Below, piece by piece: positions 2,231 through 25,794 of a stretch of DNA of 30,051 bases; position 1 is the stretch's first letter; each line of letters opens with the position of its first letter. The notes below the pieces were generated by a model. It was not told the origin of the DNA and searched no databases. It saw only the letters and a program-made list of their open reading frames with translations. Origin of the DNA: a virus; the IMG/VR virus record IMGVR_UViG_3300049856_000226, positions 1-30,051 of that record, one strand, 5' to 3'. A program made the position numbers and the translations under genes.

Positions 2231-3238
2231 ATGGCCCGTACTCTTCCTCTGCGTCAGTCGTTTGCCCTCCTCGGGCGTATTCGTATCGGCGCGTCCGACA
2301 AACGCGAGCGCAACGGCAAGACCGTCAAAGTGCCGAGGCGCCTCGACAGCTTCCGGCTTACCTCCCAAGACAAGGCCGTGATAGATAAAGCCGCCCAGCT
2401 CTACGGTGGAGACGTCCAGGCTTGGCCCGACGCTCCGCAGGGTATTCCGCAGTGGCAGGTCATAACGACGGCCAACGCCATGCGCGTGATCGTGCAAGGG
2501 ACGGCCAGTATGCGCGCCTTCTACGAGGTCTGGGACGGGGAGACGTGTTCACAACGGTGTGACGGGTGCTACATTCTGAAGGACGTGGCCCACCCTGAAC
2601 GCGTGGGAGGGGAATGCACGTGTGAGGACGGGCAGGAGAGCGCGAGCAAATTAGTCACGCGGCTCGATTGCACGCTTCCTGACGTCGCGCCCTACGGCCT
2701 GTGGCGCTTGGCGTCGCACGGCATCAATGCCACGGCGGATATGCTCGGAACAGCGCGGCTCCTCGAAGCACAAGGGCAAGCGCCCACGCAGCCCTTTGAG
2801 GCCCTCTTGCGGCTTGACCAACGCCGCTCTGGGGGTCGCCTGATCCGCGTGCCCGTGCTGCATCCGCTCATGGGCCAGTCCGTTCCAGCTCCGCGGCTCG
2901 CCACCCCACTGCAGGCAGACGATGCGGCACGTGATCTGTTCGGGGATCATGTGCAGACTCTCGCGCCCGCGCTGCCTACCGAACCCAACGCCGAGGAGCG
3001 TGTGGACATTGATGACCTCATAGAAACCATTGAGGCGCTACTGAGAGACGGCGGGCTTGACCCGGCGCGCTACTGGTCGCGGTTGTGTGACCACTGGGCG
3101 ATTGAGCGCCCGCAGCATTTGACGAGCGGGCAGCTCCAAAATGTGCTTGGGAAGCTGCGGAGTGATCTAGCGCAACGGGCGAGCCAGGTGACCGCCGTCG
3201 AGGACGTGAGCGCTGAGGGTGATCATGTTCCATTCTGA
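2231..3238 (+). CDS. phiC31 gp3/RDF-like zinc-binding protein
   Basis: A 335-residue protein whose N-terminal half resembles the recombination directionality factor-like family typified by phiC31 gp3. It has FRLTSQDKAVIDKAAQLYGG at 41-60, then W..ITTANAMRVIV, a Cys cluster C106, C110, C113, C129, C131 suited to binding zinc, and LPDVAPYGLWRLASHGINA (about 149-167). Phage members of this family partner a large serine integrase and switch it to excision. The C-terminal third (about 230-335) is less typical, with an acidic helix and a small helical segment. AAAGGAG lies at 2216-2222, upstream of the ATG. It directly follows the ribbon-helix-helix gene. No integrase is present in the window, so the excision role is inferred; many relatives are simply uncharacterised. 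Confidence 0.6.
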   Translation: MARTLPLRQSFALLGRIRIGASDKRERNGKTVKVPRRLDSFRLTSQDKAVIDKAAQLYGGDVQAWPDAPQGIPQWQVITTANAMRVIVQGTASMRAFYEVWDGETCSQRCDGCYILKDVAHPERVGGECTCEDGQESASKLVTRLDCTLPDVAPYGLWRLASHGINATADMLGTARLLEAQGQAPTQPFEALLRLDQRRSGGRLIRVPVLHPLMGQSVPAPRLATPLQADDAARDLFGDHVQTLAPALPTEPNAEERVDIDDLIETIEALLRDGGLDPARYWSRLCDHWAIERPQHLTSGQLQNVLGKLRSDLAQRASQVTAVEDVSAEGDHVPF

Positions 3239-7514: not shown

Positions 7515-8402
7515 TTAGCTCCAACTAATCCCAAAGGGCGAGGCGCATGCCCCGCCCACACTGTTGAGGTCGGTACCGCTCAGGGCCGTGGTGTAGCAAA
7601 TGATTTCCGTGAGCCTGCCATCATGGCCTGGCCCGCCTGAACTATTCCCCATGCGCAGCGCTGCTGCCAGGGACGCGCTTGTCCCCGCAGTAATCGAATT
7701 GCCCGCCGTCTGCGAATTGGCGTACACTTTCAGTGTCGTATCGCTCGAATCATGTCGCCACACGCCCACATAGGGCGTACTGAGACTGATCCCCACTGCG
7801 GCAATGAGATACGAGGAGGTAAATACAGAACTTTGTAAGTTAGGGGTCGTATCAACAGCAAATGAGGCATTCTCTCCCACTTGCGCCCAGACCTTGCGCC
7901 CGACCCCGCCAGAGCCGGTGCCCCCGCTATCGGCCAAAAACACCGAGAAGACCGTGCCGTTCGTCGTGGTGATAAACGTACTCATATTGACGGCAGAGTT
8001 GAGAAGGAACGAGCCGGTAAACTCCAGCGCCGGATAATTCCCCAAGTCCACGAAGTAGGCCCCGCTACTCAGAAGCTGTGGCTGTGTGCCCGCCGTCGCA
8101 TTGCTGACATTCCGACTGTTGCCCGACTGATCGTACCAGGTATCGATAAAGCCGCTATTGGCGCCCACAAACGCACTGAGCGCGGGAAAGTCCAGCACGT
8201 AGCCACTGAAACCAATGTCGAGTGTCGTGTTGTCGCTTGAGCGTCGCACCTTGAGGCATGGACCAGCATACGCGGCTGCCAGCTTGCGCAGAGACCAGGC
8301 ACCCGTCGCACCCGTCACCAGATCGAGCGGGTACGTCTCCGCTCTGAGGCTGTACAATTGCCCAGAGGGGAGCAGCATGGGGAACGAATAGATGTAGGAC
8401 AT
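7515..8402 (-). CDS. LamG/arabinofuranosidase-like tail protein, receptor-binding candidate
   Basis: A 295-residue protein. Its start (SLRKLAAAYAGPCLKVRRSS at about 37-56, then LDIGFSG and FIDTWYDQSGNSRN) matches the opening of the fungal-type alpha-L-arabinofuranosidase B/LamG-like jelly-roll domain that phages use in tail fibres and spikes. The C-terminal half is all beta, with Ser/Thr/Gly-rich strands and ends LTEIICYTTALSGTDLN, typical of concanavalin-like folds. It is the last structural gene, directly behind the fibre gene, where receptor-binding proteins usually lie. Whether it binds or cuts a glycan cannot be read from the sequence. GAGGGG precedes the ATG. Confidence 0.72.
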   Translation of the reverse strand: MSYIYSFPMLLPSGQLYSLRAETYPLDLVTGATGAWSLRKLAAAYAGPCLKVRRSSDNTTLDIGFSGYVLDFPALSAFVGANSGFIDTWYDQSGNSRNVSNATAGTQPQLLSSGAYFVDLGNYPALEFTGSFLLNSAVNMSTFITTTNGTVFSVFLADSGGTGSGGVGRKVWAQVGENASFAVDTTPNLQSSVFTSSYLIAAVGISLSTPYVGVWRHDSSDTTLKVYANSQTAGNSITAGTSASLAAALRMGNSSGGPGHDGRLTEIICYTTALSGTDLNSVGGACASPFGISWS

Positions 8403-8410
8403 CGCCCCTC

Positions 8411-9655
8411 TTACGCGTCGGTGTCGGCATTCGTTGTATAGTATATTTCGATACCGATCATTTCAGCCGTAGCCGCGAGTGTGTCGCTCCCATTGGTGGG
8501 GTCACGGTAGACGCGCCAGTCGATCATGTCGCCTGCTGCCGGGGTCCCTGCAATCGTCAGCGCACTACTGGTGGCGCTGGTGTGCTGTTTGTAGGCTGTC
8601 GTTCCGAGGCCAGCGTCCGTAATGGTGATGGCAGTGCCGTAGGCCACGTCCATCACGTCACCGTCAGAGGTCGCCACGGCCTGCAAGCCAAAGACCACGC
8701 TATTGGTGCTGGTACTATTGAGTGTCCAGCGGACACGATAGGTGACGGTCCCAAGATTCCACGCTTTGGGGAACGCAAATTGAAAGCAGGCATATTTGAG
8801 CGCGGCACCATCGACAAACGACAACGCCTTCACGTTGTTTTTGTTCGTGGCCATTTCGACTTGACTACCCCCGGCGCCGTTGGTGACGGATGGAGTCATA
8901 GCCGAGGCCGGGACATAAATCGTATGCAGCCCTTGCGTTGAACCGCCCGGTGTCGCCCAGGTGGCATCGCCCCGTAAAAACTTGGTCGTATCGTTGGGGG
9001 CTTTGGGCACCAGGCCGTGCCAGACCGTCGTCACATCCGTGGTCAGTGCTTCAAGCGTCCATGTCGTATTGGCCGTGGTGCAGCGCAGGACGACGCTGTT
9101 GTAGCGCAACACCCCCGCGTAACTGCCGCCTGTGCCCACCGTGGTACTCACGTCACCGCTGACGATACTCTGACTGGCATTTTGCGCAATCGTCCAGCCG
9201 CCTGCCCCCTTGCCGATCACGATAATCACATCACCGAGAAGCGCTGTGGTAGGGAGTGTGAGCGTCACCAGACTGGCGTTATTGGCGATATAGCCGTTCT
9301 GGCTCACCATCGTTTGCGATGTGCCAGTCACTTCGGTCCAGGTAAGCTTGATATCGGCTGTCGGGAGATTGATGGCCGTGCCCTGCCAGCCGCTGGTAGC
9401 GCCGCTGGGCTCATAGCTCCCGAGCGTGCCATCAAAATCCCGTGGGCGGCGCCAGTAGTAGCGGATATCCCCAGGGGTCAAACCCGTGTGCGTATACGAT
9501 TGCTCAAGGGCTTGCTGTCCCACGGGGGCAGCCAGGAGCGCCGCCGTCGAACGATCGTTGACGCTGGCGACCCACACCTCGGTATTGCAAAACGTATCCG
9601 TGTTGGGATTCGTCCAGTCAATCCGTATGGCGCGATAGATCCCCGTGGCACTCAT
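8411..9655 (-). CDS. tail fibre/appendage protein
   Basis: A 414-residue beta-rich, Thr/Ala/Gly-rich protein. The first about 85 residues resemble a fibronectin-III-like module (EQSYTHTGLTPGDIRYYWRR). A middle domain has LPTTALLGDVIIVIGKGAGG and WTIAQNASQSIV, seen in fibre shafts, followed by KFLRGDATWATPGG, a motif typical of phage fibre and collar proteins. The last about 170 residues form a separate beta domain (YKQHTSATSSALTIAG, YRDPTNGSDTLAATAEMIGI). It starts by ATGA overlap with the tail-tip gene, as expected for an appendage attached to the tip. Probably trimeric; inferred. Confidence 0.75.
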   Translation of the reverse strand: MSATGIYRAIRIDWTNPNTDTFCNTEVWVASVNDRSTAALLAAPVGQQALEQSYTHTGLTPGDIRYYWRRPRDFDGTLGSYEPSGATSGWQGTAINLPTADIKLTWTEVTGTSQTMVSQNGYIANNASLVTLTLPTTALLGDVIIVIGKGAGGWTIAQNASQSIVSGDVSTTVGTGGSYAGVLRYNSVVLRCTTANTTWTLEALTTDVTTVWHGLVPKAPNDTTKFLRGDATWATPGGSTQGLHTIYVPASAMTPSVTNGAGGSQVEMATNKNNVKALSFVDGAALKYACFQFAFPKAWNLGTVTYRVRWTLNSTSTNSVVFGLQAVATSDGDVMDVAYGTAITITDAGLGTTAYKQHTSATSSALTIAGTPAAGDMIDWRVYRDPTNGSDTLAATAEMIGIEIYYTTNADTDA

Positions 9656-12000
9656 GACGCCACCTGGTTCACGGCATAGCCCGCCCCGAACGCCGTCACT
9701 TGCGCCACTTTGTAGTAAAGCGTGGCCTGCGTACTCCCGAAGTCAATCACCTGTTCTGCAGCACTATAGACCACGCCTTTTCCAGAGGTGGCGTCAAGAA
9801 TAGTATCGCCAGAGGTCACGATCACACGCTTGACGGTCACATAAGTATTGCTGCTGTAAATGGTCACTTCAAAACCGCTATGGTCTACGTCAAACCCTTC
9901 TACAAAGCCATCAACCCAGTCGCCCCCGAAGCGTGGGCGGTACTGCCACAACACCTGCCAGGTCCCATCTGTCAGCTTTTCCGCTGCCACATACCAGGCC
10001 GTAAATGGTAGCATGTTAGCCGCTGTGGGCGCAAAGGCTACGCCGGTCACATCTGCAATGTTCTGCCCAAACGTGACGGGCTTGAACATCCGCGAGATGC
10101 TAGCATCTGTGACGGCCATGTCGACGGCCTTGGCTCCCAGATCGAGTAGGGCCAAGCGCTCATTGATGGCATGAGTTGCCTGGAGATGTTCCGTCCCACG
10201 CCTGCCACGATACAGGTGGGTCAGCTCGTAGGTGTTCGCAGCAATTAGGGTCACGGTGCCGACAGAAAGTATCTCGCTCCCCAGACTAAAGAGGTTCTGC
10301 CCAGCCAGGAGCGCTGCATCCGTCACCGACGCCAGCGTTGCGCTATTTTGCATAATCACAGTGATCACGGTCGTGTTGTCAAAGGCGTGGGTGACGCCCA
10401 CAGGGGTCGCCAGCGCGACTGTCCCCGTCACCACCTCCACAGTATTGATCGACACCTGCTGATAGGTTGCCTCGCTATCGTCAGAGCGATAGAGGGTTGC
10501 CCCGTCCCATTGCCCGGCGCCCGGTAAATAGCCCACATGGTAACGGGGAGTCGTATCATTCGCCCCAAGGGCCGGGAGATTCAACAACACGGCGGTGCTC
10601 GATGCTGCATCCACAAGCGGCGGTATCCAGGGGTCGGGTGATCCTGGAGGATCACCAGCCGCGTCGGTGACAAAGGCTGCGTCAATCGTCGCCTGCAACT
10701 CCAGAATGCCCGGATGCCCGTAGCTCGTCTCTGTCACCACCAAGTCGTAGGTGATGGCCCTGCCGGTGATGGTGATACGGTCGCCGGGCTCCAGGGTCGC
10801 ATATTTGCGAGAGAGCGTCGTGCTCATGGTTTCTCGCTGTGTCCACGCTTCGTTGAGTGATTCAAGCGCCAATTGTTTGGCCTGGGCAGGCAGCAGCGCC
10901 AGGGACGTGCTGATATTACGCGGGTTGGGGGCTAACCCCACTGCCCGTGCCAGGATGAAGCGCTGCACGCTACTTTGATAGAGCAAGTCCTTGTCGATAG
11001 AGGACACGTCCAGGTCTGTCGGCAGCCCTGCGGTATCGAGTCGCTCAATCTGCAGCCCGCCGTCTGTGTGCGTATCCTCGCCTGCCGCGATGTCGTCTTC
11101 CGGGATAGTCGCCACCACGCTCCCGGCACCCTTGCGCCGGAAGACCAACTTTGTCCCTGACTCAATACAATAGAGGCGGTACGCGCCCATCACCTGTTCT
11201 ATTGGCGCCCGTGCTTGCTCGATGTTCACGATAGCCATGGAGAGCGGGATGCCCGTGTCGATGGCCGCAATGTCCACTTGCGAGGACGGAACGCCCGCAG
11301 CCCCACACACCGCCACTAAGAACGGCGCTACCACGTTATCCCCAGCCCGCGCCACCTCCACCTTGTAAATATGCGACTGTCCTGCTTGCCCCAGATCGTC
11401 ATTTACCACCACCACATACGCCCGGTAGCGATAGCCAGGCACATTGCCCGCGCCTTCCGCCGCTTCAATGGTGGGGTCTGCCGTCTGCGTCGAGCTGCCA
11501 GGGTAAAACGTCCAACCGGTGGGGAGCGTGGGGCCAGTCTGCGCACGGTCATAGATCACGGTGTTATCACGCCAGATTTGGACAACGAAGTCCATCGGTC
11601 CCGTAATCCGCGTATCACAGAGGCACATGGCGAACGATTGCGTATACGTTTTGGTGATCGACACCACTTTCTTGCCACCGCCCTTCCCGCTCTGGGACGA
11701 ACGATGCTGGACTTCCACCTTACTCCCAGCCCAGATAATGTTGCCGCTGATCGGGTACGCGCCCCACACCTGCGGAATAGCAAGGCCGTAGGTAGACGTT
11801 TGGATAGTTTGGTCTGCAATAGACTGTTGTTCAATGCGCGTGTCTTTGGCCGTGAGCGTATCATAGAGCCCCCCGCCAAGTCCACCTACGAGACCGCCGA
11901 GACTGGCGCCGATGAGTGTGCCAGCCCCTGGCTCGATAATCGTTCCGACGGCAGCGCCGATGACCGTCCCTGCCAGGCTCCCTATCTGTGCGCCACCCAT
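9652..12000 (-). CDS. tail tip/host-specificity protein, GTA ORF15-like
   Basis: A 782-residue protein starting at the ATG at 12000, which overlaps the peptidase stop (TAATG). Residues about 4-45 are a glycine-zipper stretch (IGSLAGTVIGAAVGTIIEPG) common at the N-terminus of this family. Next comes a domain with the IPQVWG pattern, the phage-tail_3-like central region (MSTTLSRKYATLEPGDRIT, about residues 393-411), and a C-terminal part with LTHLYRGRRGTEHLQATH and INERLALLDLG, a signature of the gene-transfer-agent tail tip protein. This protein forms the distal tip and holds the fibres. It lacks the long glycoside-hydrolase-like TIM barrel seen in Rhodobacter GTA ORF15, so it is the shorter form. 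Confidence 0.85.
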   Translation of the reverse strand: MGGAQIGSLAGTVIGAAVGTIIEPGAGTLIGASLGGLVGGLGGGLYDTLTAKDTRIEQQSIADQTIQTSTYGLAIPQVWGAYPISGNIIWAGSKVEVQHRSSQSGKGGGKKVVSITKTYTQSFAMCLCDTRITGPMDFVVQIWRDNTVIYDRAQTGPTLPTGWTFYPGSSTQTADPTIEAAEGAGNVPGYRYRAYVVVVNDDLGQAGQSHIYKVEVARAGDNVVAPFLVAVCGAAGVPSSQVDIAAIDTGIPLSMAIVNIEQARAPIEQVMGAYRLYCIESGTKLVFRRKGAGSVVATIPEDDIAAGEDTHTDGGLQIERLDTAGLPTDLDVSSIDKDLLYQSSVQRFILARAVGLAPNPRNISTSLALLPAQAKQLALESLNEAWTQRETMSTTLSRKYATLEPGDRITITGRAITYDLVVTETSYGHPGILELQATIDAAFVTDAAGDPPGSPDPWIPPLVDAASSTAVLLNLPALGANDTTPRYHVGYLPGAGQWDGATLYRSDDSEATYQQVSINTVEVVTGTVALATPVGVTHAFDNTTVITVIMQNSATLASVTDAALLAGQNLFSLGSEILSVGTVTLIAANTYELTHLYRGRRGTEHLQATHAINERLALLDLGAKAVDMAVTDASISRMFKPVTFGQNIADVTGVAFAPTAANMLPFTAWYVAAEKLTDGTWQVLWQYRPRFGGDWVDGFVEGFDVDHSGFEVTIYSSNTYVTVKRVIVTSGDTILDATSGKGVVYSAAEQVIDFGSTQATLYYKVAQVTAFGAGYAVNQVAS

Positions 12001-12434
12001 TATCGGACCCCCGGATAGGCATACGTGCAAGCCCACCTAGCGCACCAGTCCCCCGTAAACCCATGGTGCACCACGCGCATGTCCTGGAGCGTGGCATGAA
12101 TGAGTCTGGCATCATCCATCAGTATCCCCGCGTGGGACGCCACCCGGCCAAACGTCATCAGTACAATATGCCCGCTGTGTGCCTGTTCCTGGGGAATCAG
12201 CACCCCCCCGAGCGCTTCAATGGTCTGCTCTAAGAGCGGCTCTGTGCGGTGTAAGTGCCACTCAGGAGAGTAGTGAGGTGGTCGCCAGCCCGCCCCAACA
12301 ACGCCACACGCAATGCCTATGCCGACCAGGAGCATGGCACAGTCAACGCCCACCTGACACAAGCACGCCTCGTGATGGTAGGGTGTGCCCACCCAGCGCA
12401 GCGCTTCCGCGCAGATGTCCGCACGCGTCGTCAT
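12000..12434 (-). CDS. NlpC/P60 tail-associated peptidase
   Basis: A 144-residue cysteine peptidase of the NlpC/P60 family. The nucleophile lies in GVDCAMLL (C32), the catalytic His in SHAGIL (H101), and a third polar residue is likely H113 in LIHA. In gene transfer agents and lambda-like phages this enzyme sits in the tail tip and cuts peptidoglycan cross-links during DNA entry. It lies between the DUF2163 and tail-tip genes, as in the GTA gene order. Length is normal for a stand-alone member. Start and stop overlap the neighbouring genes. Confidence 0.88.
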   Translation of the reverse strand: MTTRADICAEALRWVGTPYHHEACLCQVGVDCAMLLVGIGIACGVVGAGWRPPHYSPEWHLHRTEPLLEQTIEALGGVLIPQEQAHSGHIVLMTFGRVASHAGILMDDARLIHATLQDMRVVHHGFTGDWCARWACTYAYPGVR

Positions 12435-13321
12435 GGGATCACCTGCGGCAAGCCGAAGATTTTGTCACGCCCTGGCACAGTCGGTTCCCCGCCATAATTG
12501 ACGAGATTATTGTACACGTCCTTGCACACGCCAGGATTCTTGGGATCACCCCGTACGGCTCGGTACGTGTGCCCGATGGCTATCACATACGGAAATGGCC
12601 TCCCAAACGTCAACACCGGCGGCGCCCAAATGGCCACTTCCCGCGTGATGCCACTATTTGCGCCACTCGTAAACGTCAAGAGCCCGCCGTCCTGGTAGTA
12701 CGCGGATACCTGCGTCGAGGCGCTATCGCTCGCAATCAATCGCGGGTTCGCGCCCACACTGGTGATGCTGCCGTCATGAATATGGCTGGTGAGCACCGCG
12801 CCACACCATACATCCGCCTCGTAAGTCGTGCCGTTCCAGCGCGCATGGCGGTAGCGACAATTCCAGGAGTATTGCGCGCCAATACGGTTGTTCAGCGTGT
12901 GCGAGAGTCCACGGATTTCCGCCAGGAGTTGCAGGTCTTGGCGCCGCATAACGCCAAGCGTTCCATGCAGGATCACATGGCAATCCGTATCAAACAGTAC
13001 CGCTGGGAGGTTGCGCCAGTTCGCTTCAAAAAGCGTGACGGTCGCATCATCCCACACCCCAGCAGCAATGGCGGCCTCGGTGCTGGCGTCAAGAAACACC
13101 GTCACATCCATCGTGTTGACGCGCATATCGTCCGTATGGTGTACTGTGGTGGTTTGTAAGCCGCTTGTCGCTGAGAAGACTACGCTGTCTATGGCCTGGC
13201 TCACATCATGCGAGGTCCAGCCATAGACAGCGCCATCGACACGCACCACATGGAAATAGCTCGCGATAGACGTGCTCGGAAGCGCAAAGTGGGCTGTCAG
13301 TGCTGCCGAAATCACACGCAT
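12431..13321 (-). CDS. DUF2163/BR0599-type tail tip protein
   Basis: A 296-residue protein matching the phage-conserved DUF2163 family (GTA ORF13). It starts MRVISAALTAHFALPSTSI, followed by YFHVVRVDGAVYGWTSHD, where the WTSHD element is characteristic, and the C-terminal section has TCNY-like features of the family (NSGITREVAIW; CKDVYNNLVNYGG). These proteins bridge the distal tail ring to the tip. The open frame extends 73 codons upstream, but the ATG at 13321 overlaps the previous stop (TGATG) and matches the family start, so the longer version is rejected. Confidence 0.85.
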   Translation of the reverse strand: MRVISAALTAHFALPSTSIASYFHVVRVDGAVYGWTSHDVSQAIDSVVFSATSGLQTTTVHHTDDMRVNTMDVTVFLDASTEAAIAAGVWDDATVTLFEANWRNLPAVLFDTDCHVILHGTLGVMRRQDLQLLAEIRGLSHTLNNRIGAQYSWNCRYRHARWNGTTYEADVWCGAVLTSHIHDGSITSVGANPRLIASDSASTQVSAYYQDGGLLTFTSGANSGITREVAIWAPPVLTFGRPFPYVIAIGHTYRAVRGDPKNPGVCKDVYNNLVNYGGEPTVPGRDKIFGLPQVIP

Positions 13322-13932
13322 CAGGTGAGGTCTCGTGTTTCCATGAGTTGTATCGACGGCCAAGTATAGGCCGTTGGCCCCTGCACCGAACGCAAGGGCA
13401 TTTTGTCTGTCATGAACTGCACAGGCACGTCGAAGGTACACGACGCGGTAATCACTACGCCGCTCCCCGGCGCGCTCGTCACGATGCCCGTGGTGGTATC
13501 GACGGTAAACGCTGTTGTCGGTGTGCCATTGAACGCACACGTCACACTGCCGATCACGGGTTTACTGATAATCCGTGAGAACGTCGAGCTACCGATAGTA
13601 TAGATTTTAAGCAGCTGGAATGCCGTCGCGCTGCCATTGCCTACGCCTATCTGGGCGTTCACGCTGGTCGATTGCCCAGGCGCCCAGTCGCGCATGCGAA
13701 ACCTGTTGAGGCGGCCCTTAGCTACCGCATAGAAGAACGCAAAGAGGTCTTGAACGAACGCATCTTCTTTGTTTTCGAGACTAATCATATACGCATGCAG
13801 CGGGTAGGCCCACTCCTCGTTGGCTTGCGTGTGCCCCGAACGAAGCTGGACTACCGTGGTCGAAAACATCGGCCCCCCTTCGGCTTCAAGGGCGATGCTG
13901 TCGGGCAGCGAAGGTGTTTCGACAAAGGACAT
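13321..13932 (-). CDS. DUF2460 distal tail protein, GTA ORF12-like
   Basis: A 203-residue protein of the DUF2460 (TIGR02217) family. Visible elements are VETPSLPDSIALEAEGGP near the start, NEEWAYPLHAYMIS (about 39-52), FFYAVAKGRLNRFRMRDW (about 66-83) and the C-terminal VPVQFMTDKMP. In gene transfer agents and HK97-like phages this protein forms the distal tail ring after the tape measure. Gene order (tape measure, two extra genes, DUF2460, DUF2163, NlpC/P60, tip) follows the GTA pattern. Start and stop overlap adjacent genes (TAATG and TGATG). Confidence 0.87.
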   Translation of the reverse strand: MSFVETPSLPDSIALEAEGGPMFSTTVVQLRSGHTQANEEWAYPLHAYMISLENKEDAFVQDLFAFFYAVAKGRLNRFRMRDWAPGQSTSVNAQIGVGNGSATAFQLLKIYTIGSSTFSRIISKPVIGSVTCAFNGTPTTAFTVDTTTGIVTSAPGSGVVITASCTFDVPVQFMTDKMPLRSVQGPTAYTWPSIQLMETRDLT

Positions 13933-14570
13933 TACGGCCCTTCCATTCTGAGCGAATCGAAGAGGACGCCAAAATCACTCCCGGCGCCAAAATCGCCCGC
14001 AAAGCCGCCCTCATTATTCGAGGTGGTGAGCGGGGAAGACAAATCGAGATATTCCGCCACTTGTACGAGCGCGGTAAAATCTGTACTGACGGCATGATAC
14101 GCCGCCAGGTACGTCCCACCAAGCACACTCTGTTGATCAGCCACCCACAGGAGCTGAATAACAGACGGATTGCCCCACGGAGAGGCCATCCCGGTATTGT
14201 AGGTAATGAGCAGCGTGGGTGAGGCCGTGAGCCCGGAACTAAATTTCACGATGTCGATTTGTGCACCCCGCATACGCAGCCCATACGCAGCGCCCGCCCC
14301 GCCGCTCATGTCGTCCTGGCTCATCATGCAGAGCAGCCCAAACTGATGCGAGTTACTGTCAAAGCCCAGCGCTTGCGTTTTACAGCGGAGTCGCCCGCGC
14401 GCCACACCATTCGTGAGCCCAGCACCGGCAGCCCAGTTGAGGTACGTCACACTAGCGCCACTCACACGACGAATGTTAAGCGACGAGACCCCGACCAGCA
14501 CGTTAATGGGATCAAGGAATGCGGCAATCTGGGCACTGCTAGCATGATAATCAAAGTCTGTCCAGGCCAT
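13932..14570 (-). CDS. probable lectin-like (jelly-roll) tail protein
   Basis: A 212-residue protein with no clear family. The alternating hydrophobic and polar pattern (NSHQFGLLCMMSQD, YGLRMRGAQIDIVKFSSGL, SVIQLLWVADQ, TYLAAYHAVSTDFTALVQVA) and the C-terminal GGFAGDFGAGSDFGVLFDSL resemble a concanavalin/LamG beta sandwich. Similar folds in tails bind glycans. It lies between the second tail-protein copy and DUF2460, a place where gene transfer agents carry nothing, so it is an insertion relative to that plan. The fold call is pattern-based only. TAATG overlaps at both ends suggest it belongs to the operon. Confidence 0.6.
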   Translation of the reverse strand: MAWTDFDYHASSAQIAAFLDPINVLVGVSSLNIRRVSGASVTYLNWAAGAGLTNGVARGRLRCKTQALGFDSNSHQFGLLCMMSQDDMSGGAGAAYGLRMRGAQIDIVKFSSGLTASPTLLITYNTGMASPWGNPSVIQLLWVADQQSVLGGTYLAAYHAVSTDFTALVQVAEYLDLSSPLTTSNNEGGFAGDFGAGSDFGVLFDSLRMEGP

Positions 14571-15127
14571 TAGCTTTCAAACTCTTCCGTGTAGTACGTT
14601 GTGACGTTTTCTAATCCGCCCCACTCGAATTCTTCGGTATAGTAGGGAGTCACGTTTTCCAAGCCATCCCACTCGAATTCTTCCGTATAGTACGAGACTG
14701 CATCGGTATTGGTGACGGCCATCGTCCCCGTGAGACGGGTTGTCAACTCTGCCATCACAAGCACGTCCAGTGGCTTCGTGACTAACAGCCGTTGGGCAAA
14801 CCCGTCTGACTGCCAGCGCACCGAGAACGGCTCCGTTGGTGGGCGCGGGAACGTGATGCGTATCGGCTCTATCGGCCCTTTGATCGGCGGGATCTCGTTC
14901 GGATCAAACTGAACGACAAGGATCAGGTCCGTGCCGCCGATGAGTTTCCCTGGTCTGAACGTCGCATTGGCAATCTGGCTTATGCCCGGCTGTGCTGTTT
15001 GCTGATGCGCCGTTGCCAGCGCGCGCCGGGCAAATGGCCCGAGGCGCCAGTGCACAATATGCGCCGTAAATCCTGACGTAAGGAATTCGACGTTCCCGCC
15101 GATGGACGACAGAGGGATCGTCATCAC
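14570..15127 (-). CDS. second major-tail-protein-like protein with C-terminal repeats
   Basis: A 185-residue protein. Its first about 145 residues align with the major tail protein encoded at 18959-19384: both have LATxHxQTAQPGxxQxxNATF, then PGK(L/I)I, FDPN-x2-PPI, ITxP, and a final LDxx strand. It is thus a paralogue of the tube protein, placed after the tape measure rather than before it. The C-terminus adds a tandem repeat (YYTEEFEWDGLENVT, twice, then YYTEEFES; about 145-185) missing from the other copy. A distal-tail adaptor role is the simplest reading, because tube and distal ring proteins share a fold. ATG at 15127 and ATG at 15124 are both possible; ATGA overlaps the tape measure stop. 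Confidence 0.7.
   Translation of the reverse strand: MMTIPLSSIGGNVEFLTSGFTAHIVHWRLGPFARRALATAHQQTAQPGISQIANATFRPGKLIGGTDLILVVQFDPNEIPPIKGPIEPIRITFPRPPTEPFSVRWQSDGFAQRLLVTKPLDVLVMAELTTRLTGTMAVTNTDAVSYYTEEFEWDGLENVTPYYTEEFEWGGLENVTTYYTEEFES
14573..14692 (-). repeat. 48-bp tandem repeat, 2.5 copies, coding
   Basis: Two complete 48-bp units (14645-14692 and 14597-14644) and a half unit (14573-14596) encode YYTEEFEWDGLENVTP, YYTEEFEWGGLENVTT and YYTEEFES. The copies differ at synonymous and a few amino-acid positions, for example D/G and P/T, so they are not brand-new. The repeat is acidic and aromatic, at the very C-terminus of the tail-protein paralogue. Confidence 0.85.
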
Positions 15128-18100
15128 ATCCCCCGCTGCATACCGCGCAAAAGCCGCGCGCCTTGCGCTTCGATTTCGCCCCGGCTGCGCTGGAAGCTCC
15201 CAGCGTCTTGGGCCTGCACCACCATCAGCGGGCCGTTTACCGTCACACCACCACTGCCGCGTGTGCCGCCTGCGGACGTACTGCGGCCTGCTGCACTCAG
15301 GCTATCGAGCACCGCTTGTGTGGCTGCATGGGGAAGGACCGTGCCATCCGTGCGTGGGAAGATCAATTCCGCGCCACGTTCTCCCGCGAGAAATGGCATA
15401 CCAACGCTAAAATCACCGCCGCTGGCCATGCCTAACGTCGAGCCAAACAGCGCGCCCTCTCCCGCTGTGCCTGCTGCGGACGCAGACGACACGCCTCCGG
15501 AAGCACTGAATGCACTGATTACGAGTTGAATCCCCTGATCAAAAAGGCCCGTCAGGCTTTGCCGTAGCCCCGACGCATCCACCATCATCTGCAGCGCCAT
15601 CCGGCCAAACGCTTGACCGAGCCGAGCCAGGCTGACTTCGCCCCCGGTGGCCATATCAATAAGCGAATCGGTCACGAAATTGGCCACCTGTGAGGCATCC
15701 CGGAGAATAGTATTTTGGCGTTGGAGTGCTACCATTTGATCCGCGATACTTTTCGAGACCTGGTTGCGCGTAAGCTGCTGACGTAACAGCTCTTCATTGG
15801 TCAGTACAAGCTGGTCGCGCTCCTGGGCCATTGCGTCTGCAAGTTGGACGATATTCTGCGCCTGAGCGAGGATTTGCTGCTCTTGCTCCTTTCGAGTCTG
15901 CAGATCGTTCGCCCCTGGCGGGAGCTGTGCCGTGCGCAAGCCTGCCTCGGCAAAGAGTTGTTGCAAAAGGTCTGGTGCAACACGTGTCTCGCGGGTGGAA
16001 ACCATTTGTGCACGCCCCACAGCATGTTGTGCCGCAAACCGTTCAGCCATTGCAACAGGCGGCTCTCGCATCACGCGCCCCAGCTCTTCAAGCATCGGGG
16101 CTTCCTTTTCAGCCAGCAGTGCCGCGCGCTCTTCCCGGAGCGCGCGGTAATGCTCTGCACCATACGGTCCTACACCTTGGAAGCGCATAAGCCCGCGCGG
16201 CTCAGCTTTGGCCATCGCCTCCCCAAGCGCCTCAAAGGCCTGCGCTTCGGCTTCAGTACCAGTGATCATGCGTGCGCGGTCGTCCTGGTTCGTCACGAGC
16301 AGATCATGGAGGCGACGCAAGTCGTTTATTTGCCCCAACACCCCACCTGCGGCCCCACCAACGCCGCCACGTAACTGTGCATAATTTTCCTGCACACGCT
16401 TGAGGAAGTCCTGTGTTTCGGCTGGGAGATGGCTCATTCTGTCCCCGGCTACCCCATTCATCCCGGCGTTATACCCTGCAATCTGCCGCTGGAGGTCCCC
16501 CGGATAGCGCCGTTGTAGGTCACGTATATACATGGAGCCGCCGATAATGCTTTGTTCCGGGTCGTATCGGTTCGGTGTTCCGTAGTCTGCCGCTGTCCCT
16601 GGCATGAGCTGCATCAGCCCTTGCGCGCCGACTTTTGAGGTCGCCTGTGGATTAAAAGCGGACTCTTGCGCCATGAACGCTGCCACCAGCACGGGATCAA
16701 CCCCCACCTGTCCTGCAATCCGTTGAATGCGAGGAATCTGCGCGTGCCACATTTCCTGACTGATGCCCCGGATGGGCACCTGCAGATTGCCTCCCCCGAG
16801 CATAGACACCAGCGGTTGTTTGTCTAGTCGAGCTAAAATGCCTTGCATCTCTAACAGGGCCTTATTAAGCGCTTCAACCTTGTCTTTCTGAATCTCGGTG
16901 CTGTCTGCCCCTAAGAGCTGTCGCCTATCGAGGGTGGCAAGGGCGCTGGTGACGCCAGAGATGCGTTGCGCCAGTTCGGCCTGAAGCATGGCGGCTTCTT
17001 CCAGCGCTTTCGGGCCAGTTACGCCCGGACTTGCTTGTGCCGCTTGTTGAGCGTTCTGTTGGGAGATTTCCCCGATTTTCCTCAGTGATTCATATTGGAC
17101 GCTATAGAGATAATTGAGCCGCTCAAGATCGTCTTGAAGTTCTTTTTGGAGTGCCTGCATCGTGGCAGACCCAGCAGCACCCGGCAGAGCCGTTATAGAG
17201 GCGAGTTGTTCGGCAATCCGTGCGCGTTCTGCCACAGTCGCCGCTAAGGCTGCTACGGCGGGATTCCCAGTAATTGCAGCGCCAGGAAACTGCTTCTGTA
17301 AGGCTGTAGCCTCAGCAAGGGGCGCCTGGGGACCAACGCCAAGCGCCCGCTGGGCATCGCCTACGAGGAGTTTTCCGCCCTTCGCGGCATCTGCCATCCT
17401 ATCAAGCACCCAGCGCGTTGTGGCTGAGGCTCCAAACGTATCGAGCGCTTCATTAAGTTCTGTCACCGAGTTTTTCAGGCCCGCCCACGACTTCGCCAGA
17501 CTCGTGACGCCCTCAGAGCCCTTTCGCCCTATTTCGTCGTACATCTGCTGCGCGATTTTGGCCAGGTCGCTCGTCATGAGCTGCCCGGCTTCCCGCATGT
17601 TCACGAACTCGTGCGTGGTAATCCCGAGCGCCCGCGCCGAAATCCCCAGCGCGCCAGGAAAGCGCTCCGCAATCTGGTTAAAATCCTGAGCGAGCAGTTT
17701 GCCTTTGCTCATCGCTTGCTGGAACGCTAGAAACACGCCATCTGTTTCGGCACTCGTTTTCCCCAGCGCCGACATGGAGGCCGTGACGTTCTTAAACATC
17801 TGATCGGCGGCTCGACCTTCCAGGACGGTGCCCTTACTGGCCGCAGCTATTTGAATATAGGATTGCTGGAGGGCGCCAAACTCTTGCCCAAGCTGCCGCG
17901 CCGTCTGCCGTACAAAGGCGAGCGATTCTGCCCCCGCTTCCGCGCTGCCTTTGAGATTGGTAAACATGCGCTGCGTCTGCTGGAGGGCATCGCCGGCCAC
18001 CACGACCGCGGTAATCCCGCGCCGCAGCAGCTCTATCGTCGCTATGCCACCGACCAGGCCAGCAAGCGCTGTGCCTAGGCCGCTAATCGTGCCCTGCACC

Positions 18101-18213
18101 TGGGTAACGCTGGCGCGCACGTCCTGCATGCCACGTCGAGCACGCTGCATGCCCGCGTCAAAATCCTGCGTCTGTGCCTGCAAGCTGACAGAAAGTGACC
18201 CCACAAGCGCCAT
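15124..18213 (-). CDS. tail tape measure protein with lytic transglycosylase domain
   Basis: A 1029-residue protein that sets tail length. Residues 1-55 are helical; about 75-260 match the tape-measure N-terminal domain (LQQSYIQIAAASKG, QAMSKGKLLAQDFNQIAERF). A long helical section (about 300-470) precedes an SLT-type transglycosylase (about 485-600) with catalytic E517 in AFMAQESAFNP, GLMQLMP (532-538) and AGYNAG (579-584). Further coiled coil (about 730-840) leads to ASGGDFSVGMPFLAGERGAE and LIFPRTDGTV near the C-terminus, usual for this family. The enzyme domain probably opens the cell wall during injection. The start overlaps the stop of T (TAATG). Confidence 0.93.
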   Translation of the reverse strand: MALVGSLSVSLQAQTQDFDAGMQRARRGMQDVRASVTQVQGTISGLGTALAGLVGGIATIELLRRGITAVVVAGDALQQTQRMFTNLKGSAEAGAESLAFVRQTARQLGQEFGALQQSYIQIAAASKGTVLEGRAADQMFKNVTASMSALGKTSAETDGVFLAFQQAMSKGKLLAQDFNQIAERFPGALGISARALGITTHEFVNMREAGQLMTSDLAKIAQQMYDEIGRKGSEGVTSLAKSWAGLKNSVTELNEALDTFGASATTRWVLDRMADAAKGGKLLVGDAQRALGVGPQAPLAEATALQKQFPGAAITGNPAVAALAATVAERARIAEQLASITALPGAAGSATMQALQKELQDDLERLNYLYSVQYESLRKIGEISQQNAQQAAQASPGVTGPKALEEAAMLQAELAQRISGVTSALATLDRRQLLGADSTEIQKDKVEALNKALLEMQGILARLDKQPLVSMLGGGNLQVPIRGISQEMWHAQIPRIQRIAGQVGVDPVLVAAFMAQESAFNPQATSKVGAQGLMQLMPGTAADYGTPNRYDPEQSIIGGSMYIRDLQRRYPGDLQRQIAGYNAGMNGVAGDRMSHLPAETQDFLKRVQENYAQLRGGVGGAAGGVLGQINDLRRLHDLLVTNQDDRARMITGTEAEAQAFEALGEAMAKAEPRGLMRFQGVGPYGAEHYRALREERAALLAEKEAPMLEELGRVMREPPVAMAERFAAQHAVGRAQMVSTRETRVAPDLLQQLFAEAGLRTAQLPPGANDLQTRKEQEQQILAQAQNIVQLADAMAQERDQLVLTNEELLRQQLTRNQVSKSIADQMVALQRQNTILRDASQVANFVTDSLIDMATGGEVSLARLGQAFGRMALQMMVDASGLRQSLTGLFDQGIQLVISAFSASGGVSSASAAGTAGEGALFGSTLGMASGGDFSVGMPFLAGERGAELIFPRTDGTVLPHAATQAVLDSLSAAGRSTSAGGTRGSGGVTVNGPLMVVQAQDAGSFQRSRGEIEAQGARLLRGMQRGM

Positions 18214-18506
18214 TAGTTCAGTGCTCCTGACGTGCGGAGAAAGAGGCCCATGATAGCCTTGGCTTGTTCAGGGGTTTGCTGGGGGCGTGCGGGCGCGTGG
18301 GGCAAAAAGTCTCTGATCCCGTAGGAGCGGCTCGGTTTGCCGCCACCGAGACGAACGATGAGGCTCATGATGTTGGCAAGGAGTGTCGCTACTGTTGCCA
18401 TACGGACATCCTCCCGGTGTTCGCCCCAGGGCTCGTGTTCAAAGAGGGCCATCCACTCATGCAGTTCGCGCCGATCCACTTCCTGCTGGCACCGGCGTAC
18501 TGACAT
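18213..18506 (-). CDS. tail assembly chaperone T part, likely made as G-T fusion
   Basis: Reading-frame segment of 97 residues with the T-type chaperone sequence MSVRRCQQEVDRRELHEWMA, FEHEPWGEHRED and VATLLANIMSLIV. The -1 frame is open upstream of this ATG back to the frameshift site and reads RRPERRFWFRLAAHLGM, which continues the same domain. The true product is therefore probably G-T (about 245 residues, 18949 to 18213 with a -1 slip) rather than a free T. Such fusions recruit tape measure to the growing tail and are absent from the finished virion. Stop overlaps the tape measure ATG. Confidence 0.8.
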   Translation of the reverse strand: MSVRRCQQEVDRRELHEWMALFEHEPWGEHREDVRMATVATLLANIMSLIVRLGGGKPSRSYGIRDFLPHAPARPQQTPEQAKAIMGLFLRTSGALN

Positions 18507-18520
18507 CCCGAGGTGTGCGG

Positions 18521-18949
18521 CTAGGCGGAACCAGAAACGACGCTCAGGACGCCGTTGGAGTTTTTTTCGGCATCTTCCAGTACCGTCGCTACTTGCTGAT
18601 CGAGTCCGTTGACTCGACGCACCTGCACGGCTATCTCATTGAGCACTTTATGCTCTAAGTTGCCCAGCGCGTCAAGCTGTTCTGGTGTCGTACACAACAG
18701 ATGCCCGGCCTCATCACAAAGCGAGAGTGCGACCAGGCGAATCGTGTAGCGCTTAATCCAGAAGCGTCTATCTTCCTGGGGCTGCCCGTCATAGGATTCG
18801 ATCAAGCGGCCTTCAAGAAGCATCTCCTCAAGTTGGTCTTGCGCTGTCCCGGAAAACACACGCAAGCACACCGAGTCATGCAGGCTCTCGATGTGCACGT
18901 GCTCTAGCGTGACGGGCAAGGTCACAAGTTGATCAAATGATGTAATCAT
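18521..18949 (-). CDS. tail assembly chaperone G
   Basis: A 142-residue protein in the position of lambda G, directly between major tail protein and tape measure. It has mixed strands and helices (LPVTLEHVHIESL, LEEMLLEGRLIES, YTIRLVALSLCDE) and a C-terminal helix (ALGNLEHKVLNEIAVQVRRV) leading into the slippery site. It binds the tape measure during tail assembly. GAGGG is immediately upstream of the ATG. Most ribosomes would stop at 18521; a minority would slip at the site listed separately to make G-T. Identification is by position, size and frameshift rather than by a strong motif. Confidence 0.8.
   Translation of the reverse strand: MITSFDQLVTLPVTLEHVHIESLHDSVCLRVFSGTAQDQLEEMLLEGRLIESYDGQPQEDRRFWIKRYTIRLVALSLCDEAGHLLCTTPEQLDALGNLEHKVLNEIAVQVRRVNGLDQQVATVLEDAEKNSNGVLSVVSGSA
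18560..18566 (-). other. programmed -1 frameshift site A AAA AAC
   Basis: On the minus strand the zero-frame codons GAA AAA AAC (18568-18560) contain the canonical slippery heptamer A AAA AAC. The -1 frame is open from here through the T segment (stop 18213). T is offset by -1 from G, as lambda-type G/GT requires. The zero frame stops at 18521. The slip would give a fusion of about 130 + 115 residues. Downstream secondary structure was not computed. Confidence 0.85.
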
Positions 18950-18958
18950 AGTCCCTCG

Positions 18959-19384
18959 TTACGATTCCGCCGTGCGTGTCCATGCGCCTGCCACTTTGAG
19001 CATGAATGAGCATGTCTGCACGGTATCAAGCGCGCCGGTGACAGAATAGTTCTCCATGAACCCAAGGCCCGACCAGGTGCCTGCCACCGAGCTACCGTCT
19101 GCTTTCGGCCAGGTAATCGTAATCGTTTCTGCCGTTTGCGCGATAGGCGGGGCATCGTTGGGGTCAAAATGTCCCTCAATCTGCAGCCCACCGCCGTCAA
19201 TGATTTTACCAGGGATAAACGTCGCATTATTGAGTTGTCCCGCGCCAGGCTGTGCCGTCTGCATGTGGGACGTTGCAAGGGCGGGACGGGAAATCCCCTG
19301 AACGCCAATGTTCGTGACATTGGTGGAAAACCCACTGGTGCCAAACGTCATCGCAAACAAATAGGCAACACGGGCCGTGGTCAT
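18959..19384 (-). CDS. major tail (tube) protein
   Basis: A 141-residue beta-rich protein just upstream of the chaperones, which is the normal place of the major tail tube protein. Its pattern is N-terminal GFSTNVTNI, SRPALATSHMQTAQPG, NNATFIPGKIIDGGGLQIEG, FDPNDAPPI, ITITWPK and C-terminal LDTVQTCSFMLKVAGAW, all beta. It has a related second copy at 14570-15127, which argues that the gene was duplicated. GGAGG is well spaced from the ATG at 19384. The name rests on position and fold; direct family recognition is weaker. Confidence 0.78.
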   Translation of the reverse strand: MTTARVAYLFAMTFGTSGFSTNVTNIGVQGISRPALATSHMQTAQPGAGQLNNATFIPGKIIDGGGLQIEGHFDPNDAPPIAQTAETITITWPKADGSSVAGTWSGLGFMENYSVTGALDTVQTCSFMLKVAGAWTRTAES

Positions 19385-19394
19385 AGGACACCTC

Positions 19395-19814
19395 CTACGT
19401 TAGGGCAGGCTGGGGCTCAACGGCCCAGATATCGACATCGGTACTCACGACATAATCGACGTTCTCGCTACCATCCTCGCGGGGCTCGGTATCGACGGAA
19501 CGCCGATCAATAATGGCCCGGAAGATGACGGTCGCTCCTGACGTATCCCGCCACACTTGCAAAGCTCGACGCACAATAGCCCCCAGCTCCCGCGCTTGCT
19601 GGTGCGTGTGGGCGTAAAGATTGAGCTGATAGGACGCTCGAAACACGTTTTCCACGCCCTGGAAGTGCGGCACCTCCAGATAGGCAATCTCGTTATACAC
19701 GAGGTACGGCATGGCTGCCCCGTTGGGCGCTAGTAAGGGATAGATGCGCGTGCCCACCACGCCCAACGTTGGGATACTCACGAGATAGGCGCGTAGCGCG
19801 GTATCCAGGCTCAT
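19395..19814 (-). CDS. DUF3168-like tail completion protein
   Basis: A 139-residue protein with the DUF3168 pattern: IPTLGVVGTRIYPLLAPNGA near the start, PYLVYNEIAY, ASYQLNLYAHTHQQARELGA and the closing strand YVVSTDVDIWA. This family (SPP1 gp17-type) closes the tail where it joins the head. It lies between the gp10-like gene and the major tail protein, as usual. A weak AGGGG is upstream. Confidence 0.87.
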   Translation of the reverse strand: MSLDTALRAYLVSIPTLGVVGTRIYPLLAPNGAAMPYLVYNEIAYLEVPHFQGVENVFRASYQLNLYAHTHQQARELGAIVRRALQVWRDTSGATVIFRAIIDRRSVDTEPREDGSENVDYVVSTDVDIWAVEPQPALT

Positions 19815-23276: not shown

Positions 23277-24716
23277 TTAGGCGCGAGTATCAAGAACAAT
23301 AAAGTGCGACAACACGCTTGTGCCTTGCTCAGGCGTAATAGCTGTTTGCAACCACGCTTCCCCGTTCACCGCGATAATATACCGGAAACAGATCCGGTTC
23401 TTATCAAACTCTAAGTGCATCGACATATCTTTCTGAATCCCCGGCTCCCCGTCCACCGTGCCTGCATCGCCGCGCGCCCGGTAGGCCATAGCGTACCCAC
23501 TCATATTGGCGAGCACGATGTCCCCTTGCGTCCCCAGCGTTGCGCACTGCTCCAAGCGCCGAGTAGGGCGCCCTTTGAGCATTTGCGGGCCAGGAACAGC
23601 CATGGTCGGGTAGCCATTGACGTTCGCCAGCATAACCGGAATCGTCCCAGACACACCAGTCGCCGCGAGTGCGTCAAGTTCTGGCACCGCGTCACGGTTG
23701 ATAAGCCAAATGGCGTTTTCTTCATCGAGACACCGTGCCCACATTTTATGCACATTGTCGTCAACGATCGTATTGGCTGCCTGGCCAGACTCTTTCGCAA
23801 TAGAGACAAACGAGCCCCCGCTGGAGCCCGTGAAAAATCCTTTCGGCTTGGCAACGCCATCGCCACGTAGGATGGCGTTATTGATCGTCTGGATCTGGTC
23901 ATCCACGGCGGCACGGTCGAGATACGCTTCAAGCGTATCGGCATTTTGGAGCAGCGTGTTATTGACTTTGACGAACGTGGCAAGTTGCCGTGGCCGTAGT
24001 TCCAAATTGCGCACTTTGGGCTGAGAATCGGTCATGGCGGTGCCGTCCTCTACCCACGCAGAGCTAATGCCGCCCCACCGTGAACCAGGCACCCGCGACG
24101 TTTCGGCATTAGCCGTAAACTCAATACTAATCGCCCCGATAATAGGGTACAAATCGCACATGGCCATGAGGTTAATTCGCGAGCCCATCATGTGGGTATA
24201 AATATTCCGGTTGAACACCGGGGGCATCAGAAACCCGCCCGTCTGTGGAGTATTGTGATCCATGGCTGCCTGAAAACCGAGAATCCGTGACAGCCGATCA
24301 TCAACCATGCCGTTCACCGCCTGCTGATAGACGGCCATCGCAAAGTCACCATGGCCCCGAAATTCCCACTGGGGATCTTCGGTCCAATTTGCCTTCATAC
24401 GTGTGACACGCGCATTGACCCCACGTGTCAGCACATCCTGTGGCGTAGGGATACTGTTAAAGTCCTGGCGCACCGAGGCCGCTGCCTGGCGCCGGGCTTC
24501 CGTTTGCATCCGACGCTGCTCAAATTCATAATCTTTCTTGAGGTCGCTCGCTTCGCTGACGAGGTCGTTATAATGCGCCTCTTCCTCTTCGGTCCATGCG
24601 CGGTCTTCTGCGTCAATGCCCGCTTGCAGTTCCTCGGCTTCCGTCAGCTTTTGCGCAGCCGCTTCCCGCATACCCTGCAGGGTTGCAATCGTCTTGGTTT
24701 TGGCCTGTTCCGCCAT
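23277..24716 (-). CDS. HK97-fold major capsid protein
   Basis: A 479-residue major capsid protein of the HK97 type. The first about 95 residues are a helical, Glu/Ala-rich scaffold (delta) domain (MREAAAQKLTEAEELQAGID, DLVSEASDLKKDYEFEQRRM) normally cut off by the prohead protease. Then comes PQTGGFLMPPVF, E-loop/P-domain features (ISIEFTANAETSRVPGS, WVEDGTAMTDS, RNLELRPRQLATFVKV) and the A-domain (NAIWLINRDAVPEL, VNGYPTMAVPGPQML, GDIVLANMSGYAMAYRARG). ATG at 24716 has GGGAGG nine bases upstream; ATG at 24725 is too close. The first 104 bases overlap the protease gene in another frame. Confidence 0.93.
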   Translation of the reverse strand: MAEQAKTKTIATLQGMREAAAQKLTEAEELQAGIDAEDRAWTEEEEAHYNDLVSEASDLKKDYEFEQRRMQTEARRQAAASVRQDFNSIPTPQDVLTRGVNARVTRMKANWTEDPQWEFRGHGDFAMAVYQQAVNGMVDDRLSRILGFQAAMDHNTPQTGGFLMPPVFNRNIYTHMMGSRINLMAMCDLYPIIGAISIEFTANAETSRVPGSRWGGISSAWVEDGTAMTDSQPKVRNLELRPRQLATFVKVNNTLLQNADTLEAYLDRAAVDDQIQTINNAILRGDGVAKPKGFFTGSSGGSFVSIAKESGQAANTIVDDNVHKMWARCLDEENAIWLINRDAVPELDALAATGVSGTIPVMLANVNGYPTMAVPGPQMLKGRPTRRLEQCATLGTQGDIVLANMSGYAMAYRARGDAGTVDGEPGIQKDMSMHLEFDKNRICFRYIIAVNGEAWLQTAITPEQGTSVLSHFIVLDTRA

Positions 24717-25794
24717 ACGTGACATCCTCCCACGCTGCGCGCACCTGCGCGACACTGAGCCGTCCCGCTGCTGCCATCCGGCGAGGTTGCCGCATGCGCG
24801 CCGCGTCGTTTACTGCCTGGTCAAAAGACATGATCCCATCAATCAACCCCAACTCTTTGGCTCTCTGGGCTAAAAAGACCCTCCCGTCTGTTACCGCTTT
24901 GAGTTGTGCGTTGCTCATCTTGCGCCCACGTTGTACCGCCTCAAAGAAAAACGTGCCCATGCTCTGCACCATGTCCCCCAGATAGGCTAAATGCTCTGGC
25001 AGTACCGGTGCCCCCGGAATCCCGACAGCCTTGTACGGGCTCGTCGTGACCACATGCACCGTCACGCCATCGCGCGCCGCTTTGCCTGACGTATCCTCTA
25101 GGGCTGCCAGCACACCAATGCTGCCAATTTGCGCAGAGCGATTAGACGTAATCCGTTGTGCCTGGCTGCCAATCCAATAGGCCGCGCTCGCGCCTAGATC
25201 CTCAATATGGGCCACTACTGGTTTGCTCAGACGCGCCCGGACCACTTCGTCCGCAACATCCTGGATACCGTCTACTTGCCCGCCAGGGGAATCAATGGCC
25301 AGGAGGAGGCTTTTCACCTGTTCGCTTGCGACGGCTTGCCGGATAGCACGCCTGGTCAAGATCGCGGACGTGCCGCCAAACTTGCTCACACCTTTCGTAA
25401 GCCCCCCCACAATACGGATAATCGCCACCCCATCTTCTGTCGTGGCATAGAGTGCCCCAGTGCCGCCAGGGCCATCGCCCATCGCAGCGACAGGCTGCAT
25501 GGGCCACAAGCCGCGCTGAATGGCCAGGACGGCCTCACGTATCCAGTGGGGCTCAATCGCCCAGAGCCCGAGATGCGCCCGGAAACAGGCCACGGTATCG
25601 AGTGCTTCTGGGCGTAACTGCCCCTGTGATGTCGGCGCGCTCGGATTCTCCGGATGCTCGGCATCCCAGGCCCGATAACACACCGCGTTCCTTTGGGCAA
25701 TGTTGGGATAATCTTTCGCCATCGTGGCGTCCCCCATGCAGCGCGAATGGTAGACATCTTTGTGTTCATTTTTGCGCGGCTTCGGGTTTGACAT
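24613..25794 (-). CDS. S49 (SppA-like) prohead protease
   Basis: A 393-residue serine protease that matures the capsid. An N-terminal Cys module (about 1-45: SRCMGDATMAKDYPN, AQRNAVCYRAWD) common in phage protease genes precedes the S49 core. The core has LLLAIDSPGGQV (DSPGG at 168-172), the nucleophile S203 in GASAAYWIG, GSIGV and catalytic K255 in SPYKAVG; the 52-residue Ser-Lys spacing equals that of Bacillus SppA. VTDGRVFLAQRAKELGLIDG closes the domain. The last about 34 residues (Gly/Asp/Ser-rich, two Cys) lie inside the capsid gene. Portal stop and protease ATG are two bases apart. Confidence 0.9.
   Translation of the reverse strand: MSNPKPRKNEHKDVYHSRCMGDATMAKDYPNIAQRNAVCYRAWDAEHPENPSAPTSQGQLRPEALDTVACFRAHLGLWAIEPHWIREAVLAIQRGLWPMQPVAAMGDGPGGTGALYATTEDGVAIIRIVGGLTKGVSKFGGTSAILTRRAIRQAVASEQVKSLLLAIDSPGGQVDGIQDVADEVVRARLSKPVVAHIEDLGASAAYWIGSQAQRITSNRSAQIGSIGVLAALEDTSGKAARDGVTVHVVTTSPYKAVGIPGAPVLPEHLAYLGDMVQSMGTFFFEAVQRGRKMSNAQLKAVTDGRVFLAQRAKELGLIDGIMSFDQAVNDAARMRQPRRMAAAGRLSVAQVRAAWEDVTYGGTGQNQDDCNPAGYAGSGCAKADGSRGTASGH

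Follow-up and report, generated by a model that had tools for sequence, protein, structure and literature searches.

A diverged duplicate of the tail tube gene in the tip gene block of a phage with a GTA-type tail

Gene content of the tail region

This study focused on two related tail genes in a virus record of 30,051 bases, which in its entirety is referred to here as the window. The record represents a tailed phage with an HK97-type portal and capsid, and no close relative of it was found. The late genes are on the minus strand and run from the terminase (29468) to the tail genes (about 7500). All of the tail genes share this strand, in the order terminator, major tube protein (A), chaperone, gpT-like protein, tape measure, a second tube-like protein (B), an orphan gene, DUF2460 protein, hub, peptidase and megatron (Table 1). 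The real start of the hub gene is probably inside the listed ORF, and the SLT domain of the tape measure protein, a lytic transglycosylase domain, occupies residues about 497-588. Three further genes were assigned by similarity. Between the portal and capsid genes, positions 24613-25794 (minus strand) specify a peptidase of SppA type (ClpP fold), which presumably acts as the protease of capsid maturation. Downstream of the tail block, the product of 7515-8402 (minus strand) showed a partial match to the alpha-L-arabinofuranosidase B catalytic family (PF09206, E=2.9e-7), and may be a tail part that binds or cuts glycans. The gene at 2231-3238 (plus strand) matched the Gp3-like recombination directionality factor family (PF18897, E=6e-24).

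Table 1. Tail genes and associated features of the window
Feature	Position	Strand	Basis or remark
Tail terminator / tail completion gp17-like protein	19395..19814	-	Precedes A
A, major tail tube protein, 141 aa	18959..19384	-	Usual position; strong ribosome site AGGAGG
Tail assembly chaperone	18521..18949	-	phrog_344
Lambda gpT-like tail protein	18213..18506	-	PF06223
Tape measure protein	15124..18213	-	TMP_3 and SLT transglycosylase domains
B, tube-protein paralogue behind the tape measure, 185 aa	14570..15127	-	GTG 15127, ATG 15124
Segment for B residues 34-61, putative beta2-beta3 ring-docking loop	14945..15028	-	Loop placement from models and PMC8718954, PMC7296036
48-bp tandem repeat, 2.3 copies	14583..14694	-	Encodes acidic B C-terminal repeats YYTEEFEWDGLENVTP / YYTEEFEWGGLENVTT / YYTEEFES
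Orphan gene between B and DUF2460, 212 aa	13932..14570	-	Starts at B stop (TAATG)
DUF2460 protein, counterpart of RcGTA distal tail protein g12	13321..13932	-	PF09343, E=1.1e-47
Hub protein, GTA g13 counterpart	12431..13540	-	Phage_phiJL001_Gp84_N / BR0599
NlpC/P60-type peptidase, GTA g14 position	12000..12434	-	Sequence and position; relative in L015
Megatron-like protein	9652..12036	-	Phage-tail_3, Rcc01698_C

The gene for A follows the terminator and precedes the chaperones and tape measure, as is usual for a major tube gene. A itself gave weak matches to phage major tail families, namely phrog_1407 (E=6.5e-4) and phrog_10528, and its relatives were recovered from 12 viral records; members of this family matched Phage_TTP_11/12 (PF16460, PF16461), phrog_158 and phrog_1407. 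Wherever the corresponding neighbours were detected in these 12 records, the relative of A was a single gene located after the terminator, ahead of the gpT-like gene, or both. Judged by these family matches, A is a member of the lambda-like tail tube protein family (Phage_TTP_11/12, phrog_158/1407/10528), and its predicted structure (mean pLDDT 71) resembled tail tube and Hcp proteins. No relatives of A or B were found by tblastn in 50,697 phage records, or by two pattern scans of 84,980 bacterial and archaeal genomes.

B is encoded between the tape measure and the DUF2460, hub and megatron genes, that is, within the tip block and not in the major tube gene position. Its start overlaps the stop of the tape measure gene (ATGA, with the ATG at 15124) and its stop overlaps the start of the next gene. 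Its ribosome site is the weaker of the two, GGGGGA only. The core of the protein is basic, with a pI of 9.7 compared with 5.1 for A and 4.1-4.4 for the other tube proteins of the family, and is extended at the C-terminus by some 45 residues that have a net charge of -13 and are built on the repeat unit YYTEEFEW(D/G)GLENVT. No convincing match to this repeat was found, the hits being at E=0.7 only. B was without a Pfam hit, including to PF09343, the family of its DUF2460 neighbour, and weak NCBIfam and phrog_5300 matches were dismissed as being at chance level. Scans of IMG/VR with B alone, with the tape measure and with the orphan gene gave no relatives, nor were relatives of B found in plasmids.

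The position of B is unusual for a tip of this type. The DUF2460 gene directly followed the tape measure gene in 13 of 13 annotated DUF2460 phages inspected, a sample covering phages of Alteromonas, Xanthomonas, Desulfofustis, Microcystis, Paracoccus, Rhodobacter, Sphingobium, Caulobacter, Roseobacter and Dinoroseobacter hosts together with two environmental records, and in an IMG/VR relative (L015) the two ORFs overlap. This agrees with an earlier reading of the sequence by itself, according to which gene transfer agents have no gene of this kind between tape measure and DUF2460, and it means that B and the orphan are two inserted genes in the present phage. All libraries and collections searched were without a relative of the orphan; visual inspection of its sequence hints at a beta-rich, lectin-like product. 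In a search for other phages with the same duplicate behind the tape measure, 40 viral records matching the tube, DUF2460 or portal proteins, many of them fragments, each contained at most one tube copy. As no second phage with a B gene was found, the arrangement is known from this phage alone.

Relationship and origin of A and B

Although B had no tube-family match of its own, it aligned with A over 122 residues without a single gap, at 39% identity and 55% similarity (BLASTP, E=2e-29). The local alignment score of 224 compares with a mean of 29 and a maximum of 62 for 2000 shuffled sequences (z=39), and the two were the sole paralogous pair among 23 late-region proteins tested, no other pair reaching E<0.01. 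The sequence-only reading had proposed this relationship from four shared blocks (LATxHxQTAQPG, NATFxPGK, FDPNxxPPI and ITxP), all of which were found, collinear, in the two minus-strand ORFs it had named. Its title and coordinates correctly placed the copy after the tape measure at 14570-15127. In its text, however, this copy was described as the one in the normal tube position, but the operon runs from right to left and the normal one is 18959-19384, so the labels had been swapped. The similarity is thus far above chance, and neither protein proved to have closer relatives in an unrelated family. On this alignment, A and B are true paralogues.

Identities at the three codon positions were 61, 76 and 42 of 122. 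Third positions are saturated, which means that the identity of A and B reflects constraint at the protein level and not a recent copy, so that, as far as the codons tell, the duplication is old and has been kept at the protein level. A duplication artefact of assembly was ruled out, half of the bases being different between the copies.

Predicted structures point the same way, at low to moderate confidence. The B model (mean pLDDT 61) has the same core and predicted strand order as A, and its best Foldseek match was lambda gpV, followed by, among others, tube and baseplate proteins of contractile systems, the RcGTA and R4C tube proteins and Hcp; comparison with BFVD likewise returned tube and baseplate proteins. 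Both models show the expected strand-loop-helix order, at pLDDT values of 61-71 and with whole-chain TM-scores against solved tubes of only 0.3-0.5; both appear to be of tube/Hcp type, and no different folds were seen. At such low TM-scores the structural matches would support a tube fold for B only jointly with the sequence homology. VgrG and flavin reductases also occurred among the VIA-align rows, with Z of about 6-8.5, and were not taken as kinship at such values.

No tube protein closer to B than A is was found, A being the best match of B anywhere. The two share a seven-residue insert (TAQPGIS/TAQPGAG) in the putative ring-docking loop that is absent from seven of the eight other family members. 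B probably arose by duplication of the tail tube gene of this phage, or of a close ancestor, and moved into the tip gene block. Phylogenetic support for a sister grouping of A and B was weak (57/54), and a grouping of A with L007 was not rejected (p-AU 0.54) and fits equally well, so that a sister relation is no more than possible. This leaves room for an origin of B outside the lineage, by transfer from the tube gene of another phage, but the common insert and the standing of A as best match speak against it, and we regard such an acquisition as unlikely. The terminal branch of B is long, at 2.4 changes per site compared with 0.79 for A.

Conserved loop and possible function of B

Divergence between the two proteins is uneven. 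Within residues 34-61 of B, 20 of 28 residues are identical to A (71%), compared with 31 of 111 (28%) in the remainder (Fisher p=4e-5). In the models the second strand precedes this segment and the helix follows it. In MTP folds, a long loop between beta2 and beta3 makes most of the contacts between rings (PMC8718954, PMC7296036), and in RcGTA this loop also contacts the distal tail protein (PMC7296036). Only nine of the 20 identical codons in the segment also agree at the third position. Recent gene conversion was therefore rejected as the source of the conserved loop, the synonymous positions not being especially alike, and selection on the protein is indicated. Retention of the loop would be just as compatible with B forming a proximal ring or mixing into the tube.

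Position, conserved loop and diverged body make a distal ring between A and the DUF2460 protein the most likely role of B. The favoured explanation, to which we assign a probability of about 0.6, is that B is a low-copy distal tube ring produced by a lineage-specific duplication, comparable to T5 p140, T4 gp54 and lambda gpM. B would be made in few copies and would assemble into one tube-fold ring, placed after the final ring of A and before the distal-tail ring of DUF2460, where it would serve as a tube initiator or adaptor. The ring-docking loop would have been kept, while the sandwich would have altered to fit a new neighbour. The acidic, repeated C-terminal tail would probably face outward and may bind an additional tip protein, for which the product of the orphan gene is the obvious candidate. 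We infer the formation of a ring, the place of B in the virion, its copy number and its partner. Of the earlier proposal that a duplicated tube protein serves as a distal ring, the duplication in the tip block is upheld by alignment, synteny and fold, and the ring is plausible by analogy only.

A second possibility is that B is a tube subunit that intermingles with A throughout the tail, in which case its C-terminal repeats would decorate the tube surface. Retention of the ring-docking segment would fit, as would the C-terminal location of the extra part, which is where decorated tube proteins carry theirs. SPP1 is comparable. Its tube protein occurs in two forms, one of them extended at the C-terminus, that come from one gene, whereas the present phage has two separate, diverged genes; two major tail proteins of SPP1 are named in the title of Auzat et al. 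2008 (cited in PMC8718954). Set against this, the strands of B beyond the loop share only some 25-30% identity with A, the core of B is basic where A and the family tube proteins are acidic, and B is encoded in the tip block behind a weaker ribosome site. Together, these make a mixed tube improbable.

The overlap of the B and tape measure genes suggests coupled translation, and would suit a tube-fold assembly factor, a chaperone of the tape measure or tip that is absent from the mature virion or active only when tube polymerisation starts. This role is distinctly improbable for B, as the usual chaperone pair is already encoded upstream (18521-18949 and 18213-18506) and the conserved inter-ring segment suggests a structural contact. 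That B is merely a drifting, dispensable duplicate under little selection might be read from its long branch, low-complexity extension and want of an orthologue, but is very improbable, given a frame intact over 185 codons (though third positions are saturated, with the codon identities of 61/76/42 given above), a conserved block that is a single functional loop and not a set of random residues, and gene starts and stops that overlap as in an active operon.

Comparison with known tails and significance

Tube-like proteins encoded behind the tape measure gene have counterparts elsewhere: the lambda gpM gene directly follows it, as does B, and in T4 the genes for gp54 and gp48 follow that of gp29, the tape measure protein. 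In lambda, gpM has the same topology as gpV and connects tube and tip, and like B it is a single tube domain (PMC10721106). It differs in being itself the distal ring, in contact with gpL and gpJ, a role for which the present phage has the DUF2460 protein besides B, and in its length of 109 aa without a repeat tail, compared with 185 aa with one. In T4, gp48 and gp54 form tube-like hub rings for tube polymerisation, but the tail is contractile, gp54 has also been suggested to help start the sheath (PMC8718954, PMC10038345), and the sequences are remote.

T5 p140 offers a further parallel. It forms a tube-like ring between pb6 and pb9, is held to derive from pb6 by duplication, and contacts the collar protein p132 through its C-terminus (PMC10038345). 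Both p140 and, by prediction, B are tube-fold proteins beyond the major tube protein that are attributed to tube-gene duplication; the single-ring site is known for p140 and putative for B. T5 combines a double-domain tube with pb9, whereas the present phage combines a single-domain tube with DUF2460, and the p140 gene apparently lies next to pb6, ahead of the tape measure (judging from gene numbering and size), and not behind it as B does. The tip module itself is shared with RcGTA, including the order of DUF2460-type distal protein, hub, peptidase and megatron, but there one g12 hexamer sits directly on five g9 tube rings, with no extra tube-like ring (PMC7296036). Since the DUF2460-type protein alone suffices as the distal ring of RcGTA, B would by analogy not be needed.

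A bolder, and doubtful, extension of the distal-ring reading is that a T5-like extra ring was built independently into a GTA-type tip by duplication of the tube gene, with the acidic tail anchoring the newly acquired orphan. A collar bearing fibres or lectins would then have originated a second time, with the duplication still visible in the sequence.

The tube gene of this phage has a genuine, diverged duplicate among the tip genes of a GTA-type tail, of a kind already known from other phages. A single ancestral gene is believed to underlie the tube, terminator, stopper and distal proteins of long tails. Such paralogues are usually less than 20% identical (<19% in RcGTA, PMC7296036; 9% between T5 p140 and pb6, PMC10038345), so that duplication has to be deduced from folds. 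With A and its tip-located copy at 39% compared with the 9% of the T5 pair, it can be seen which parts were kept, such as the putative ring-docking loop, and which were changed as a tube subunit became a tip part. The case also shows that extra parts can be accepted between tape measure and distal ring in a GTA-type tip, which had the same layout in all of the 13 phages inspected.
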